Origin: an uncultured Erythrobacter sp.
Lineage (GTDB): Bacteria > Pseudomonadota > Alphaproteobacteria > Sphingomonadales > Sphingomonadaceae
Assembly (NCBI GenBank): GCA_947500645.1
Contig: CANMSD010000001.1
Coordinates: 868,001-932,000 of the forward strand
DNA: 64,000 bases
Reading direction: 5' to 3'
This document shows, piece by piece, positions 43,903 to 49,425 of the stretch. Each line of letters begins with the position of its first letter. Positions within the stretch are counted from its first letter, which is position 1. Below the pieces are notes generated by a model, which saw only the letters and a list, made by a program, of their open reading frames with translations, ran no database searches and was not told where the DNA came from. The position numbers and the translations under genes were made by a program.

Positions 43903-46197
43903 CTATTCGGCTGGTTCCTGAGCGGCACCGCCATTGGAGAGCTTGAGGCGCAACGCTTCCACCTCAGCTTCAATTCGCGTCGCGAGATTTTCAAGCTGGC
44001 CTGAGCTGTTGTCGATCCGGTCGATCGTCTCGCCAGACTGTGCAAAATTCTCAGAGACCTGCGCAACGGCACTGCCGCTGTCGATCGCCTTGCGGCGCAC
44101 GCCTTCGATCAGATCGCTAAGATTGGTACTGGTTGCACGCTGTTCTTCGACCGAACTTGCCGCGACAGCAGCCATCTCGCCAACCGTTTCAATCGAGGCA
44201 TCGATCGCCCGGAACTGAGCGATGGACTCGCCAATCAATCCGGAGAGTGATCCGACAATCGTAGCGATCTCGCTCGATGCTTCCTCGGTCTGTTTAGATA
44301 GCGCGGCGACTTCGGTAGAAACAACCGTAAAGCCTTTGCCCGCATCGCCCGCGTTAGCCGCTTCGATCCGCGCGTTCAGTGCCAACAATCCAGTCTTGTC
44401 TGAGATGGCCTTGATCAACGCGACAAGCTTGCCGATCTCGTTGGCAGAAACCTCAAGCTGACCTGCGATTTGGGCACCGCGATCGCTGGCCTGATCCGCA
44501 TGACCGACAGCGGTGTTTGCATCTTCGACCCGCCTACCTACCAGCTCGAGCGTGTCGGCCAGCAATTGGGCGCCTTGCGCCATCTGCTCTGCAATCGACA
44601 GTGCAGCATCGGCCTGATCGCTGGCATGGCCGACCAGTTCGCCCGATTGCTGCGCATTGGTGGCGAGTTGCTCAGAGCCACGCGAAAGATCACGCGCCTG
44701 CGTGTTCAGCTGTGTCACAAGCTCGGCAAACTCGCGCTGGAAGTCGGTCAACAATTCCGAAGTGGTGTCCGCCCTCGCCCGTTCACGTTCTGCCATATGG
44801 GCGAGTTCGCGTTGCTCGGCGCGCAGGCGATCGGCAGCAACTCGCTCCGTTGCTTGAACCCGGTCGAGAAAGGCATTTAACTCGGCGGCAATATCGCCGC
44901 CCTCTTCAAAAGGGTCGACATCGATCCGCGTATCGAGGTCGGCGTCGCCGCGATTGATTTGCTGCAATGTCCGCGACAATTCCGCGTTGCCCAGCATGGC
45001 GCGGTGTTCCGATAGGTTAAGACCGCGCTGCTCGTCATCGAGCGACACGCGCAATTTGCCGCGCGAGTGCATGAAGTGAGCGGCGGTGCCCATCGCTAGG
45101 AATGTGAAACCGCCGATGCTGACCGCACCGAGTATTTGCACACCAAGCTGCGCAAAAAAGCCATTTGCCATAGCCTCGCTGGGAACAATGAAAGGCACTG
45201 CAATCGTGCCGAAGAATCCTCCAAAACCGTGGACGCTCACTGCGTAAACTGCGTCGTCGACGCGGTGTGTGCGTTCCAACCAGTCGGTGAAGAAAACCGC
45301 GAGCCCGGCTGCAAGCGCTGCAGCACCAATGGCTCCAAGCGAGATCGCAAACGGCGCACTGGCAGTGACCGTCACCAGTCCGACTAGGAGGCCGTTGATC
45401 ATGCGGTCCGCGCGATAATAGCCGTCTTTGTAGAATCCGACGACGGTCGCAGCGCAAGCCGCCGCCGCGCCAGCGAGAAGCGTGTTGGAAAGGGCGCGGG
45501 CGAACTGATCGCTGCCCGGTTCCAAGGTGCCAGTGTTGAAGCCCAGCCAACCTACGAGGAGCACGAGAGCGCCAGCACCCGCCAGGATCGGGCTGTGACC
45601 GTGAATGGTGCGCACATCGTCGCTTAGCTCATCACCGGTTTCATTATCGAAACGTCCCGAACGTGCGCCGACGACCAGCAAGATCGCCAAAGCCGCCGCG
45701 CCGCCAGCAAGGTGAACCACGCTCGATCCAGCAAAGTCGATAAAGCCAAGCGTTTCCAGCCAACCTTTACCTGTTCCGCCGGGTAGCAAGCTCGCCCAGG
45801 CCCAATGTCCAACGATTGGATAGATCAATGCAGTTAACGGCAAGGTCAGCAAAACATAGGCCGAAAACCGCAAACGCTCAGCAATCGCGCCCGATACGAT
45901 TGTGGCGGCCGTGCCGCAGAAGAGCGCTTGAAAAAGGAGGAAGAGCGTAACCGAGCCGCTGCCCGAATAACCCATCAAACTGGCATCGAAACCGATCAGG
46001 CCAAAACCTGGGCCAAACATGATTGCCGCGCCGACAATATGGAAAGCGAGAACCGCGACCACAAAATCCGCAAGGTTCTTCATGGAGACATTGATACTGT
46101 TCTTGGAACGGACGAAGCCCGCCTCCAAAAACAGGAATCCGATTTGCATTCCAGCCACCAGCACGCAGGCCAGCGCCAGCCAGATCTCTACCGCCAA
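43903..46197 (-). CDS. ammonium transporter fused to chemoreceptor signalling domain (Amt-MCP)
   Basis: This 764-residue fusion has an N-terminal Amt/Rh domain (about 1-378, eleven hydrophobic segments). Its pore residues are intact when compared with E. coli AmtB: Phe93 gate (FQALFCG), Asp154 and His162 (DFAGSSVVH), Trp217-Phe220 (WLGFN) and His323 (VHGFGG). A HAMP-like linker (about 405-450, INRGDADLDTRI...AFLDRVQA) and a coiled coil lead to an MCP hairpin with the CheA/CheW-contact tip at about 597-630 (SDKTGLLALNARIEAANAGDAGKGF). It should sense or transport ammonium and signal to chemotaxis-type kinases. TTG start after GGGAAGG. No che genes are nearby, and no glnK gene is adjacent. Confidence 0.93.
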   Translation of the reverse strand: MAVEIWLALACVLVAGMQIGFLFLEAGFVRSKNSINVSMKNLADFVVAVLAFHIVGAAIMFGPGFGLIGFDASLMGYSGSGSVTLFLLFQALFCGTAATIVSGAIAERLRFSAYVLLTLPLTALIYPIVGHWAWASLLPGGTGKGWLETLGFIDFAGSSVVHLAGGAAALAILLVVGARSGRFDNETGDELSDDVRTIHGHSPILAGAGALVLLVGWLGFNTGTLEPGSDQFARALSNTLLAGAAAACAATVVGFYKDGYYRADRMINGLLVGLVTVTASAPFAISLGAIGAAALAAGLAVFFTDWLERTHRVDDAVYAVSVHGFGGFFGTIAVPFIVPSEAMANGFFAQLGVQILGAVSIGGFTFLAMGTAAHFMHSRGKLRVSLDDEQRGLNLSEHRAMLGNAELSRTLQQINRGDADLDTRIDVDPFEEGGDIAAELNAFLDRVQATERVAADRLRAEQRELAHMAERERARADTTSELLTDFQREFAELVTQLNTQARDLSRGSEQLATNAQQSGELVGHASDQADAALSIAEQMAQGAQLLADTLELVGRRVEDANTAVGHADQASDRGAQIAGQLEVSANEIGKLVALIKAISDKTGLLALNARIEAANAGDAGKGFTVVSTEVAALSKQTEEASSEIATIVGSLSGLIGESIAQFRAIDASIETVGEMAAVAASSVEEQRATSTNLSDLIEGVRRKAIDSGSAVAQVSENFAQSGETIDRIDNSSGQLENLATRIEAEVEALRLKLSNGGAAQEPAE

Positions 46198-46274
46198 TGT
46201 CCTTCCCCAACTTTTGTTATATTGCGGACATATATGGGAAATCAGCTAACGAAGTCTTACCGGTTTGTTAGCCT

Positions 46275-48347
46275 TTATAACCCCGGGGGAAGCTGGGTTT
46301 TCAGCTCTTCGAGCCATACATCGGCCACTGCATCGGATGGTGCACGCCAATCGCCGCGTGGGCTGAGTGCACCGCCCGAACTAACTTTGGGCCCATTGGG
46401 CAGAGCGCTGCGTTTGAACTGACTGAAAGCGAAGAAGCGCTTCACGAAGTTTTCGAGCCAGCGCGCAATCTTCGCCAAATCGTACTCATTCTTGCGCTCG
46501 TCCGGGAAGCCCGCGGGCCACAGCCCAGCCTTTGCATCTTTCCACGCATGCCATGCGAGAAACGCGATCTTGGACGGTCGCTGACCGTAACGGATCGTGT
46601 GGTGCAGGAAGAAGTCGTTGAGCTCATATGGCCCAATCCGCTCTTCAGTGCTTTGCATTGCTCCGTCCTCGCCCGCCGGGACAAGCTCCGGCGAGATTTC
46701 CGTTTCGAGGATCGCACCGAGTACTTCGCTGCATGCAGGCAGGAATTGCTCGGTCTCAATCGTCCAACGGATCAGATACTGGATCAACGTCTTGGGTACA
46801 CCTGCGTTCACACCGTAATGGCTCATGTGATCACCGACGCCGTAAGTGCACCAGCCCAGCGCGAGCTCTGACAAATCGCCTGTGCCGACGACGAAACCGG
46901 AATGCTGCCCGGCAAGGCGGAACAGGTAGTCGGTGCGCAGCCCCGCCTGCACATTCTCGAACGTCACGTCGTAGACCGGTTCTCCATCTGCGAACGGATG
47001 CTCCATATCTTCGAGCATCCGCGTCGCGGCCGGTTTGATGTCGATCTCCTCTGCGGTGATCCCCATCGCTTCCATCAATTTCCAGGCGTTGGACTTTGTC
47101 GTGTCGGAAGTTGCAAATCCGGGCATCGTGTAGCCGCGAATGGCGGTGCGCGGCATCTCCAGCCGGTCACAGGCCTTGGCCGCCACGATAAGCGCGTGGG
47201 TGGAATCGAGCCCGCCAGAAATGCCGATGACCAAGGATTTCGCTTGAGTTGCGGTGATCCGCCGCATCAGCGCATCGACCTGAATATTGAAAGCCTCGTA
47301 ACAGTCTTCGTCCAGCGCATGCTGGCGATTGGGCACGAACGGGAAACGGCGGATAGGTCGGATCAGGCCGATATCGCGCGCTTCTTCGGTCACACCCGCA
47401 TGGTCGAACACGACGCGGCGGTAATCATCCTCCGGTCGCCCATGCGCCTCGGCAGCGTCGGCGAAGGTCTGGTTGCGATTGCGCTCGGCGGCGATCCGCT
47501 GCGTGTCGATATCGACCACACATAGCTCTGGTTGAAGGTCGAAGCGCGTGCTTTCAGCCATCAGATCGCCGAGCTCATAAATCACGCCCTGTCCGTCCCA
47601 GGCCAAGTCGGTCGTGCTCTCGCCATGCCCGCTGGCGGAATAGACATAGGCGCAAATCGAACGCGATGAACTGGATCGGCAATGAAGATGGCGATCATCG
47701 GCGCGGCCAATCGTGATCGGCGAGGCGGACAGATTGCAAAGGATCTGCGCACCCGCGAGCGCTGCCATCGTACCTGGCGGATTGGGCGCCCAGAAATCTT
47801 CGCAGATCTCGACCCCAAAGGTGAAACCGCGAAGGTTGCCCGCCGCAAAGACGAGATCGGTTCCGAACGGCACTTCCTCGCCTGCAACCGCGATCCACAG
47901 GTCTTCGCAGCCACGACCATGCGCAAAATAGCGCTTCTCGTAGAATTCGCGGTAGTTCGGCAGGTATGATTTGGGAATGACGCCGAGCAGCTCGCCGCCC
48001 GCGATCACCAACGCGCAATTGTAGACCTTGTCTCCGCGTTTGAGTGGCGCACCGATCACCAGAACTGGCGCAAGCTCGCTGGACGCTTCCAAGACTTCGC
48101 CAATTGCTTCTTCAACGCGCCCTAGCATCGCCTGTTGCAACAGCAGATCGTCGATCGCGTAGGATGACAGCGTCAGCTCCGGATAGACGACCAAGTCGAC
48201 ATTCTGCTCATGCGCCTTCCGCGCCTCTGCAATTACGCCTGCTGTATTGTACGCCACGTCCGCCGGACGCGCGCTGGGTGTCGCTGTCGCCACACGGACG
48301 AACCCATGAGCGTGCATGTCGTAAAATCGATGCGTTTCCTGAGCCAT
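46275..48347 (-). CDS. nadE: glutamine-dependent NAD+ synthase
   Basis: This 690-residue NadE of the two-domain type uses an N-terminal nitrilase/amidase domain to release ammonia from glutamine (Glu57 in YPELTLSSY, Lys126 in PKSYLPNYREFYE, Cys182 in GVEICEDFW). The C-terminal synthetase domain, with P-loop SGGLDST at 377-383, amidates deamido-NAD. GTGDLSELALGWCTYGVGDHMSHY is the typical late motif. The ATG 48347 gives MAQETHRFYDMHAHGFVRVA, close to the family N-terminus. It lies 58 bp after the topoisomerase IB gene on the same strand. Confidence 0.95.
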   Translation of the reverse strand: MAQETHRFYDMHAHGFVRVATATPSARPADVAYNTAGVIAEARKAHEQNVDLVVYPELTLSSYAIDDLLLQQAMLGRVEEAIGEVLEASSELAPVLVIGAPLKRGDKVYNCALVIAGGELLGVIPKSYLPNYREFYEKRYFAHGRGCEDLWIAVAGEEVPFGTDLVFAAGNLRGFTFGVEICEDFWAPNPPGTMAALAGAQILCNLSASPITIGRADDRHLHCRSSSSRSICAYVYSASGHGESTTDLAWDGQGVIYELGDLMAESTRFDLQPELCVVDIDTQRIAAERNRNQTFADAAEAHGRPEDDYRRVVFDHAGVTEEARDIGLIRPIRRFPFVPNRQHALDEDCYEAFNIQVDALMRRITATQAKSLVIGISGGLDSTHALIVAAKACDRLEMPRTAIRGYTMPGFATSDTTKSNAWKLMEAMGITAEEIDIKPAATRMLEDMEHPFADGEPVYDVTFENVQAGLRTDYLFRLAGQHSGFVVGTGDLSELALGWCTYGVGDHMSHYGVNAGVPKTLIQYLIRWTIETEQFLPACSEVLGAILETEISPELVPAGEDGAMQSTEERIGPYELNDFFLHHTIRYGQRPSKIAFLAWHAWKDAKAGLWPAGFPDERKNEYDLAKIARWLENFVKRFFAFSQFKRSALPNGPKVSSGGALSPRGDWRAPSDAVADVWLEELKTQLPPGL

Positions 48348-48405
48348 AGCCGGCCTGTACTCCCGCTGTTTCAAGCAGCGCTCTAGCGAGGAATGCGTCG
48401 ACTTC

Positions 48406-49425
48406 CTAGGCCGCGAGCAATTCGGCGGCGTCGGGGCTTTCTTCGAGCAGTTGCAGAAGACCGCGTTCGTGGCGGGTGAGATAGCGCGTTGCACGCGGCA
48501 TTTGCAGCCTTTCGCGCCATTCCTCCCAGCCATTGTCGCGCGAAAGAATGTCGATCACGGCGGGATGGATATAGCTGTTGCGCACGACCGTCGGCGTGTT
48601 GCCTAGCTTTTGCGAAACCTCGTCGAGCACCATGCTGATCGTCGGGCGATCCTTCGCCGTGGCAAGAAGCGCGAAAGCAAGGACGCTGGCGTGCCAGGTG
48701 CGAAAATTCTTGGCAGAGAATTGCTCGCCCATCGTCTGACGCAGATAGCCGTTCACATCGCTGCTACCGATTGGCTGTCGCAGTCCGTTTTCATCGTAAT
48801 ATTGAAACAAATGCTTGCCCGGCACGTCACGCGCATCTTCGACCGCGCGAGCGAGCGCTTCGTCCTCCAGCGTGATGCTGCGCTCTTTCCCGCCTTTACC
48901 CCTATAGCAAAGCTCGACCGTGCTGCCCGTTATCGTGGCGTGGCGATCACGCAACGTCGACGCCCCGAACGATTTGTTGTTCTTCCTGTACCGCTCGTTG
49001 CCGATGCGAACGAAACCCATGTCGAGCAGCCGGACAATCGCAGCGAGAACACGCGAACGGGTCGCGGTCTCACCTTCGATCTCCGCTTCGACCCATTTGC
49101 GGATTTGAGGCAGGAAATTGCCGAAATCGAAGCAACGATCGAATTTTTCGCTTTCGCGCATCGTGCGGAAATGGGGGTGGTAGCGATATTGCTTACGCCG
49201 CCGGTCGTCATATCCGGTGGCGAGGATGTGCCCGTTGGCCATCGGGCAGAACCAGGTATCGCGGTAAGCGGGCGGCAGCGCGATTGCATTCAATCGCGTC
49301 CGCTCCTGGCGATCCCGGATCAACTCACCATCGGGATCGTAATAGGCAAATCCCTTGCCCGCGCCGCGCCGAGTGATCCCCGGCAGACTGTCATCGACAT
49401 AGATCAACTTTTCCATCGACAACAT
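48406..49425 (-). CDS. type IB DNA topoisomerase (bacterial/poxvirus type)
   Basis: From the ATG at 49425 the protein has 339 residues; an ATG three codons on (49416, MEKLIYVDDSLPGITRR) is equally possible. The N-terminal domain binds DNA. The catalytic core shows FVRIGNERYRKNNKSFGASTLRDRHA, RGKGGKERS, NFRTWHAS (Arg and His) and the nucleophile Tyr in VVRNSYIHP. It relaxes supercoils through a 3'-phosphotyrosine. Bacterial TopIB genes are patchy in distribution. It is divergent from the YghU-type GST gene, with nadE downstream. Confidence 0.93.
   Translation of the reverse strand: MLSMEKLIYVDDSLPGITRRGAGKGFAYYDPDGELIRDRQERTRLNAIALPPAYRDTWFCPMANGHILATGYDDRRRKQYRYHPHFRTMRESEKFDRCFDFGNFLPQIRKWVEAEIEGETATRSRVLAAIVRLLDMGFVRIGNERYRKNNKSFGASTLRDRHATITGSTVELCYRGKGGKERSITLEDEALARAVEDARDVPGKHLFQYYDENGLRQPIGSSDVNGYLRQTMGEQFSAKNFRTWHASVLAFALLATAKDRPTISMVLDEVSQKLGNTPTVVRNSYIHPAVIDILSRDNGWEEWRERLQMPRATRYLTRHERGLLQLLEESPDAAELLAA

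Follow-up and report, generated by a model that had tools for sequence, protein, structure and literature searches.

The question that this locus raises is whether an ammonium transporter domain (Amt) joined to a chemoreceptor-type (MCP) signaling hairpin reports ammonium to a chemosensory kinase and, if so, by what signal and to what end. The fused gene lies in the window, by which we mean the whole stretch of 64,000 nucleotides analyzed from an uncultured Erythrobacter sp. We read the protein, at a probability of roughly 70%, as a membrane ammonium receptor of the Amt sensor kind with an MCP hairpin as its output. The Amt receptor kind is already known, and the MCP is a new output variant. 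Ammonium is a main bacterial nitrogen source; among CC-licensed papers, no bacterial ammonium chemoreceptor or Amt-MCP was found, and the words chemotaxis and MCP are absent from the 2018 Ks-Amt5 paper (PMC5764959) and a 2023 review of prokaryotic Amt proteins. Amt-MCPs offer a defined receptor with a predicted ammonium site, also in named strains, and they raise the structural question of how a trimer drives a signaling unit whose working forms are dimers and trimers of dimers. Their interest is heightened by the seemingly flagella-free state of this strain and by how widespread the hybrids are.

The fusion is encoded by one frame with zero internal stops in its translation. A sequence-only reading had described Amt, HAMP-like linker, and MCP hairpin in that frame, and the open reading frame, the Pfam matches, and the layout of an AlphaFold2 model all agree with this (Table 1). 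The start position is common to the window protein and five genus relatives, which use ATG in four cases and GTG in the fifth, the GTG having been assigned by us. In the relatives L017 and L018, the ATG start is preceded by GGGGTGAGAG and GGGGTGAGAA, respectively. The NAD synthase gene adjoins the Amt-MCP gene in all five genus relatives, and no functional link between the two is claimed. Flavodoxin-like, pirin, and LysR genes come next in four of the five, the contig of the fifth stopping shortly past the gene, and a DoxX gene was matched near the fusion in two of the five.

Table 1. Features of the Amt-MCP locus in window coordinates
Feature	Position	Strand	Details and basis
Amt-MCP gene	43903-46197	(-)	Single intact frame, 764 aa, TTG start
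Likely ribosome-binding site, GGGGAAGG, before the TTG start	46201..46208	(-)	Inferred by reading of the sequence
NAD synthase gene, upstream of Amt-MCP	46275..48533	(-), same strand	Pfam
Amt (ammonium transporter family) domain	44998..46182	(-)	Residues 6-400; Pfam PF00909, AlphaFold2 model, Foldseek
Stretch with predicted sensor-type ammonium site	45892..46146	(-)	Q18, E25, N41, D44, T99, S102; alignment
HAMP-like linker	44848..44988	(-)	Residues 404-450; Pfam HAMP in other Amt-MCPs, helix-loop-helix in model
MCP signaling hairpin	43939..44730	(-)	Helices 490-615 and 617-753; Pfam PF00015, AlphaFold2 model
MCP tip	44320..44406	(-)	Residues 598-626 (LALNARIEAANAGDAGKGF at 605-623); alignments
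Predicted methylation motif SSVEEQRATS	44128..44157	(-)	Residues 681-690; consensus motif

The Amt-MCP fusion is real and conserved. A search of 100 genus genomes returned full-length matches in the genome itself and in 5 of the 99 others, at 56 to 80% identity to the window protein, and the same fusion recurs in many further lineages. It is therefore no product of an assembly error or a frameshift, and the chance that a sequencing or assembly error joined two genes, a danger already raised on the sequence alone, is vanishingly small. The fusion is also under purifying selection. In the two closest pairs, G052-G073 and G055-G073 (dS, 0.68 to 1.24), dN/dS was 0.034 to 0.064 across all three parts (Amt, linker, and MCP); comparisons with more distant relatives, in which dS was high or saturated, were excluded from this support. 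Given these low ratios, a degenerate gene was not supported.

The Amt domain is, by sequence and model comparisons, of the sensor type. It matched Ammonium_transp above the cutoff (E, 1.6e-79), and in the AlphaFold2 model (a single chain from 35 sequences, with a mean pLDDT of 81.8 and a pTM of 0.61), the Amt part mostly reached a pLDDT of at least 90, except for values of 63 to 73 at residues 181 to 200. The top Foldseek matches of the model were 8qj4 and 8qj3, the ON/OFF states of Sd-Amt1, and 6eu6, the structure of Ks-Amt5, with identities of 38% for Sd-Amt1 and 34% for Ks-Amt5. A profile built from the six genus proteins scored 332 bits for Sd-Amt1 and 265 for Ks-Amt5, compared with 152 for A. 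fulgidus Amt1 and about 96 for AmtB. Elsewhere in the genome there are two unfused Amts, one of them adjoining PII, and we assigned both to uptake.

In Ks-Amt5, two ammonium ions are bound at Q24, E31, N47, D50, T51, T109, and T112 (PMC5764959). The window protein keeps six of these seven residues, T112 as Ser, and the seventh, T51, is Phe, as it is in the Sd-Amt1 sequence; the equivalents of Q24, E31, N47, D50, T109, and T112 are the six residues given in Table 1. The full Q-E-N-D-T-[ST] set was present in 116 of the 120 distinct fused Amts versus 5 of the 25 unfused ones. This count covers 145 distinct genes, after removal of identical rows and duplicate genes (L196 = L043, L208 = L068), and its rows were picked for their similarity to the window protein, which makes them no random sample. 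By output domain, the signature was complete in 41 of 41 MCP, 49 of 53 GGDEF, 22 of 22 kinase, and 4 of 4 other fusions, and the fused Amts missing it were L187, L211, L207, and the truncated L217. Within flanks of about 1.5 kb, a PII gene was found near 19 of the 20 signature-negative unfused Amts versus none of the 5 signature-positive ones; put the other way, none of the 19 PII-linked unfused Amts carried the signature. We read the signature and this split in PII linkage as pointing to a receptor-type Amt lineage distinct from the PII-controlled uptake channels. The idea that the signature marks fused Amts only was weakened by the five unfused controls with the full set, and the site can therefore exist without fusion. 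These five (L213, L214, L215, L216, and L218) are proteobacterial Amts with no PII match in their flanks, and in L214 and L216, the Amt gene has an overlapping or nearby frame that matches GGDEF, perhaps a partner in trans.

The segment that follows the Amt domain would be a HAMP-like linker. HAMP domains have a helix-connector-helix layout, and the model places a short helix at residues 404 to 416, a loop at 417 to 431, and a long helix at 432 to 486; this match in layout and Pfam HAMP matches in other Amt-MCPs suggest the assignment. Pfam HAMP gave no match in the window protein even at an E value of ≤10. Among 35 Amt-MCPs scanned (Pfam, E ≤0.01), namely, the window protein together with 34 of the 37 Amt-MCPs from the species-genome scan described below (L113, L130, and L133 were left out), Amt and MCPsignal were each found in 35, HAMP in 14, and HAMP_2 in 4. 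HAMP stands directly past the Amt domain in L049, L050, L136, and L141, the loci for which positions were seen. Residues 477 to 509, between linker and hairpin, and residues 731 to 764 were modeled with a pLDDT mostly below 50.

MCPsignal was matched above the cutoff at residues 568 to 721 (E, 2.5e-20). Aligned with the nine other MCPs of the genome, the hairpin was internally gap-free with seven, both che-operon receptors included. The tip reads LALNARIEAANAG, with Asn at the usual Arg. This residue, N615 (window positions 44353 to 44355), is Arg in all five genus relatives, and its replacement could weaken tip contacts. The predicted methylation motif (E685/Q686), matched against the methylation consensus, is the only one in the protein, and its register, +76 from the tip, recurs in five further MCPs encoded here.

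The genome (3.38 Mb, 99.98% complete) contains 10 MCP-domain matches, the window protein included, and its CheW domains belong to one CheW and one CheA only. Both are on another contig than the window. The earlier statement that the window is free of che and glnK genes thus held in its CheA and CheW part, and the expectation that the downstream partner would be found elsewhere was borne out; the proposed genome search for CheA and CheW found both present, so the objection that they might be absent falls. The operon order is cheA-cheW-cheY-cheB-cheR-GGDEF/EAL-MCP-MCP, in which CheY was recognized by eye from its translation. The GGDEF-EAL gene (L036, 14744 to 16282) sits between cheR and the two MCP genes. 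The order cheA-W-Y-B-R-GGDEF/EAL was kept in five of six relatives' clusters examined; in G166, cheA-W-Y-B-R was matched and GGDEF/EAL had no match. CheW-domain proteins were present in all 11 carrier genomes examined. The Pfam domains and the che genes support the proposal that this MCP-type receptor takes its input through an Amt. Since an Amt-like sensor is joined to a chemotaxis-receptor arm, the protein probably reports ammonium to the chemosensory kinase, and an ammonium receptor that feeds CheA is, judging from these sequence features, quite likely.

What such a receptor would respond to is less plain. The gate Phe, pore Asp, and twin His residues noted earlier were all mapped by alignment with Ks-Amt5: the gate Phe residues are F93 and F220, the filter Trp is W134, the twin His residues are H162 and H323, and the pore Asp is D154. 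From this intact pore, the sequence-only reading had drawn a hint of flux or occupancy as the signal; the pore stands, and the step to flux is not supported, given a sensor-type Amt with a Ks-Amt5-like site. A protein that still transports ammonium and whose hairpin reports the flux would fit both the intact pore and the loss of part of the plug. The pore-blocking trio of Ks-Amt5, F27/Y30/F34, is F21/L24/F28 (F-L-F) in the window protein, so that Tyr30 is Leu here; among the Amt-MCPs, F-L-M is the commonest set (20 of 41) and the full F-Y-F trio is rare. Because the trio is only partly kept, the pore of the window protein may conduct. Nevertheless, Ks-Amt5 keeps the pore residues and does not translocate ammonium efficiently (PMC5764959). 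The filter Ser, which is Thr (T224) in the window protein, is absent in 11 of the 41 Amt-MCPs (5 Thr, 5 Gly, and 1 Leu), and a pore His is substituted in single Amt-MCP rows of the alignment. No PII gene was found at any of the six genus Amt-MCP loci (flanks of about 1.5 kb), and the two other Amts of the genome are available for uptake. We therefore consider a flux-reporting transporter doubtful. All 41 Amt-MCPs keep the residues of the high-affinity site, and the PII-linked unfused Amts lack the set, which favors binding of ammonium, rather than its flux, as the signal; given a receptor that feeds CheA, binding would be the likely trigger.

The output is a separate matter. Taxis had been suggested, and a classical chemoreceptor that steers flagellar or pilus motility toward ammonium would account for the complete CheA-W-Y-B-R set and for the full-length FHIPEP matches in carriers such as G052, G073, and G092. 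The genome itself argues otherwise. Flagellin had no matches in it, and no flagellar-type export gate was recognized; its FHIPEP matches fall at one locus, an injectisome-like cluster with secretin, YscD-, YscU-, FliP-, and FliR-family genes. The T2SSE matches are one 512-amino-acid protein and one beside VirB/TrbL genes, and by their length and neighbors, they look CpaF/TadA-like and VirB11-like, respectively. A PilT-type pilus route was set aside, as no such ATPase was recognized among the T2SSE matches, which were judged without a PilT-specific model. The carrier G166, which is 100% complete, has no FHIPEP match. Because flagellin, a flagellar export gate, and a PilT-like ATPase all went unrecognized, the suggestion of taxis was not upheld for this strain, where classical motility is unlikely. 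Full-length FHIPEP in other carriers means that Amt-MCPs elsewhere may serve taxis. Loss of flagella could also have left the fusion as a relic that has stopped signaling, and the Asn that replaces an otherwise conserved Arg at the tip, the TTG start, and the unrecognized flagellum would suit such a history. We find it very unlikely, as the frame is intact, the che operon is intact and conserved, and the Amt and MCP parts each have a dN/dS of about 0.08 versus G052 (dS is high, at 1.6 and 2.0, and the linker was not computable). A non-motility output in this strain is moderately probable, and an output in c-di-GMP or adhesion would be more likely than taxis.

The region with the FHIPEP matches (G000:C2:333857-344643; L105 15858 to L106 6743) is a non-flagellar type III secretion-like cluster of secretin, YscD-like, FHIPEP, FlhB/YscU, FliM/N-like, FliP, and FliR families. 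A gene for a DNA/RNA non-specific endonuclease lies immediately downstream of the cluster. FHIPEP matches with the same two-piece pattern were seen in three genus relatives. The window's own contig carries VirB/TrbL-type IV secretion genes (G000:C1:1203000-1214000; L108).

Anatomically, the binding-triggered receptor has good support, and its further steps are put forward as a proposal. Ammonium would enter the Amt vestibule from outside, cross the selectivity filter, and be held in the intramembrane site formed by Q18, E25, N41, D44, T99, and S102. Occupancy of the site would shift the Amt C terminus and loop 5, and the HAMP-like linker, paired between protomers, would relay the shift to the MCP hairpin. 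The hairpin would tune the single CheA-CheW complex, with adaptation via CheR and CheB, and the likeliest output routes would be the operon's CheY and GGDEF-EAL proteins, acting on c-di-GMP, adhesion, or Tad-type pili. The mismatch in symmetry between Amt trimers and MCP dimers counts against this explanation. One tentative solution, which we put forward as rather improbable, is that a chemosensory array reads ammonium directly via a trimeric channel fold, that two Amt trimers give six hairpins, equal to one MCP trimer of dimers, that the Amt trimers thereby tie the receptor lattice together or thin it out, and that the array in this strain sets c-di-GMP or attachment and not swimming.

Within the genus, the Amt-MCP is sparse (6 of 100 genomes, its own included). 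Full-length proteins turned up in 2 of 298 family genomes (its own and G166; E ≤1e-58), 3 of 396 order genomes (its own, G166, and G612; E ≤1e-70), and 4 of 385 class genomes (its own, G659, G748, and G913; E ≤1e-80), the three samples overlapping. The remaining 17 class matches were Amt-kinases by purpose-built profiles, L052, L053, and L055 also by Pfam. A scan of a species-genome collection yielded 561 relatives, and the best 80 of these, classed by purpose-built output profiles, comprised 37 Amt-MCP, 34 Amt-GGDEF, 4 Amt-kinase, 3 other, and 2 interrupted proteins. The interrupted ones, L120 and L131, are Amt-MCP-like frames excluded from the 37; one of the 37, L139, ends within the MCP domain. 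The 37 fall into five phyla, with 31 from Pseudomonadota (30 Alphaproteobacteria and 1 Betaproteobacteria), 3 from Spirochaetota, and 1 each from Bacillota, Planctomycetota, and Verrucomicrobiota, as assigned from record titles, many of the records being metagenome bins. Because 37 of the best 80 of 561 relatives are Amt-MCPs, the type is less rare than had been supposed. Named carriers include Roseibium marinum DSM 17023, Tritonibacter mobilis, and Terasakiella pusilla.

The outputs joined to Amt sensors are MCP, kinase, GGDEF(-EAL), nucleotide cyclase, and SpoIIE phosphatase, and with these five kinds the Amt sensor acts as a swappable input module. The class III nucleotide cyclase is fused in L161, from a Leptospiraceae bin, and the PAS-SpoIIE phosphatase in L180 and L183, from Cyanobacteria (Pfam). 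In a phylogeny of 118 Amt domains, 6 changes of the MCP label were required versus a shuffled mean of 33.5, and starred branches force 2; this is a quickly built tree, long-branched and with open forks, on which gains and losses are indistinguishable. A single origin, with one clade for all 40 Amt-MCPs on the tree, was rejected (p-AU, 0.0074). A viral origin was also considered, and the viral_contigs scan gave 32 pattern matches, none of them a relative. The plasmid collection held 31 records with an Amt match, all below 60% identity.

One of the closest known systems is Sd-Amt1 of Shewanella denitrificans (PDB 8qj3, 8qj4, and 8qpf), which has the same site residues, with Phe at 51 and Ser at 112. 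The sequence alignment with Sd-Amt1 continues across the linker to residue 454 of the window protein. The output differs, being an MCP hairpin here and reportedly a diguanylate cyclase in Sd-Amt1, where a HAMP domain is said to form the joint and the HAMP domains to pair, so that the output dimerises. Ks-Amt5 (PDB 6eu6), an ammonium-sensing histidine kinase from Kuenenia stuttgartiensis, likewise uses an Amt as receptor, and Q24, E31, N47, D50, and T109 are kept in the window protein, with T112 as Ser, as are the twin His, gate, and Trp residues. It differs in its kinase output and in T51 and Y30; it is described as having no HAMP domain, and the loss of transport is shown for Ks-Amt5 itself (PMC5764959). 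Alphaproteobacterial Amt-kinase and Amt-PAS-GGDEF-EAL proteins have the same Amt type with other output domains. In many of the Amt-kinases, the linker similarity extends beyond residue 480, and in one, L048, Pfam HAMP falls just under the cutoff. Assimilatory Amts of the AmtB-GlnK kind share the fold and pore residues and, unlike the window protein, have no site signature, are PII-linked, and lack an output domain. Classical HAMP-bearing MCPs, such as the che-operon receptors of this genome, share hairpin length, tip, and the register of the methylation motif; where they have a membrane anchor with a periplasmic or PAS domain, the window protein has an 11-helix channel fold that is trimeric in its relatives.
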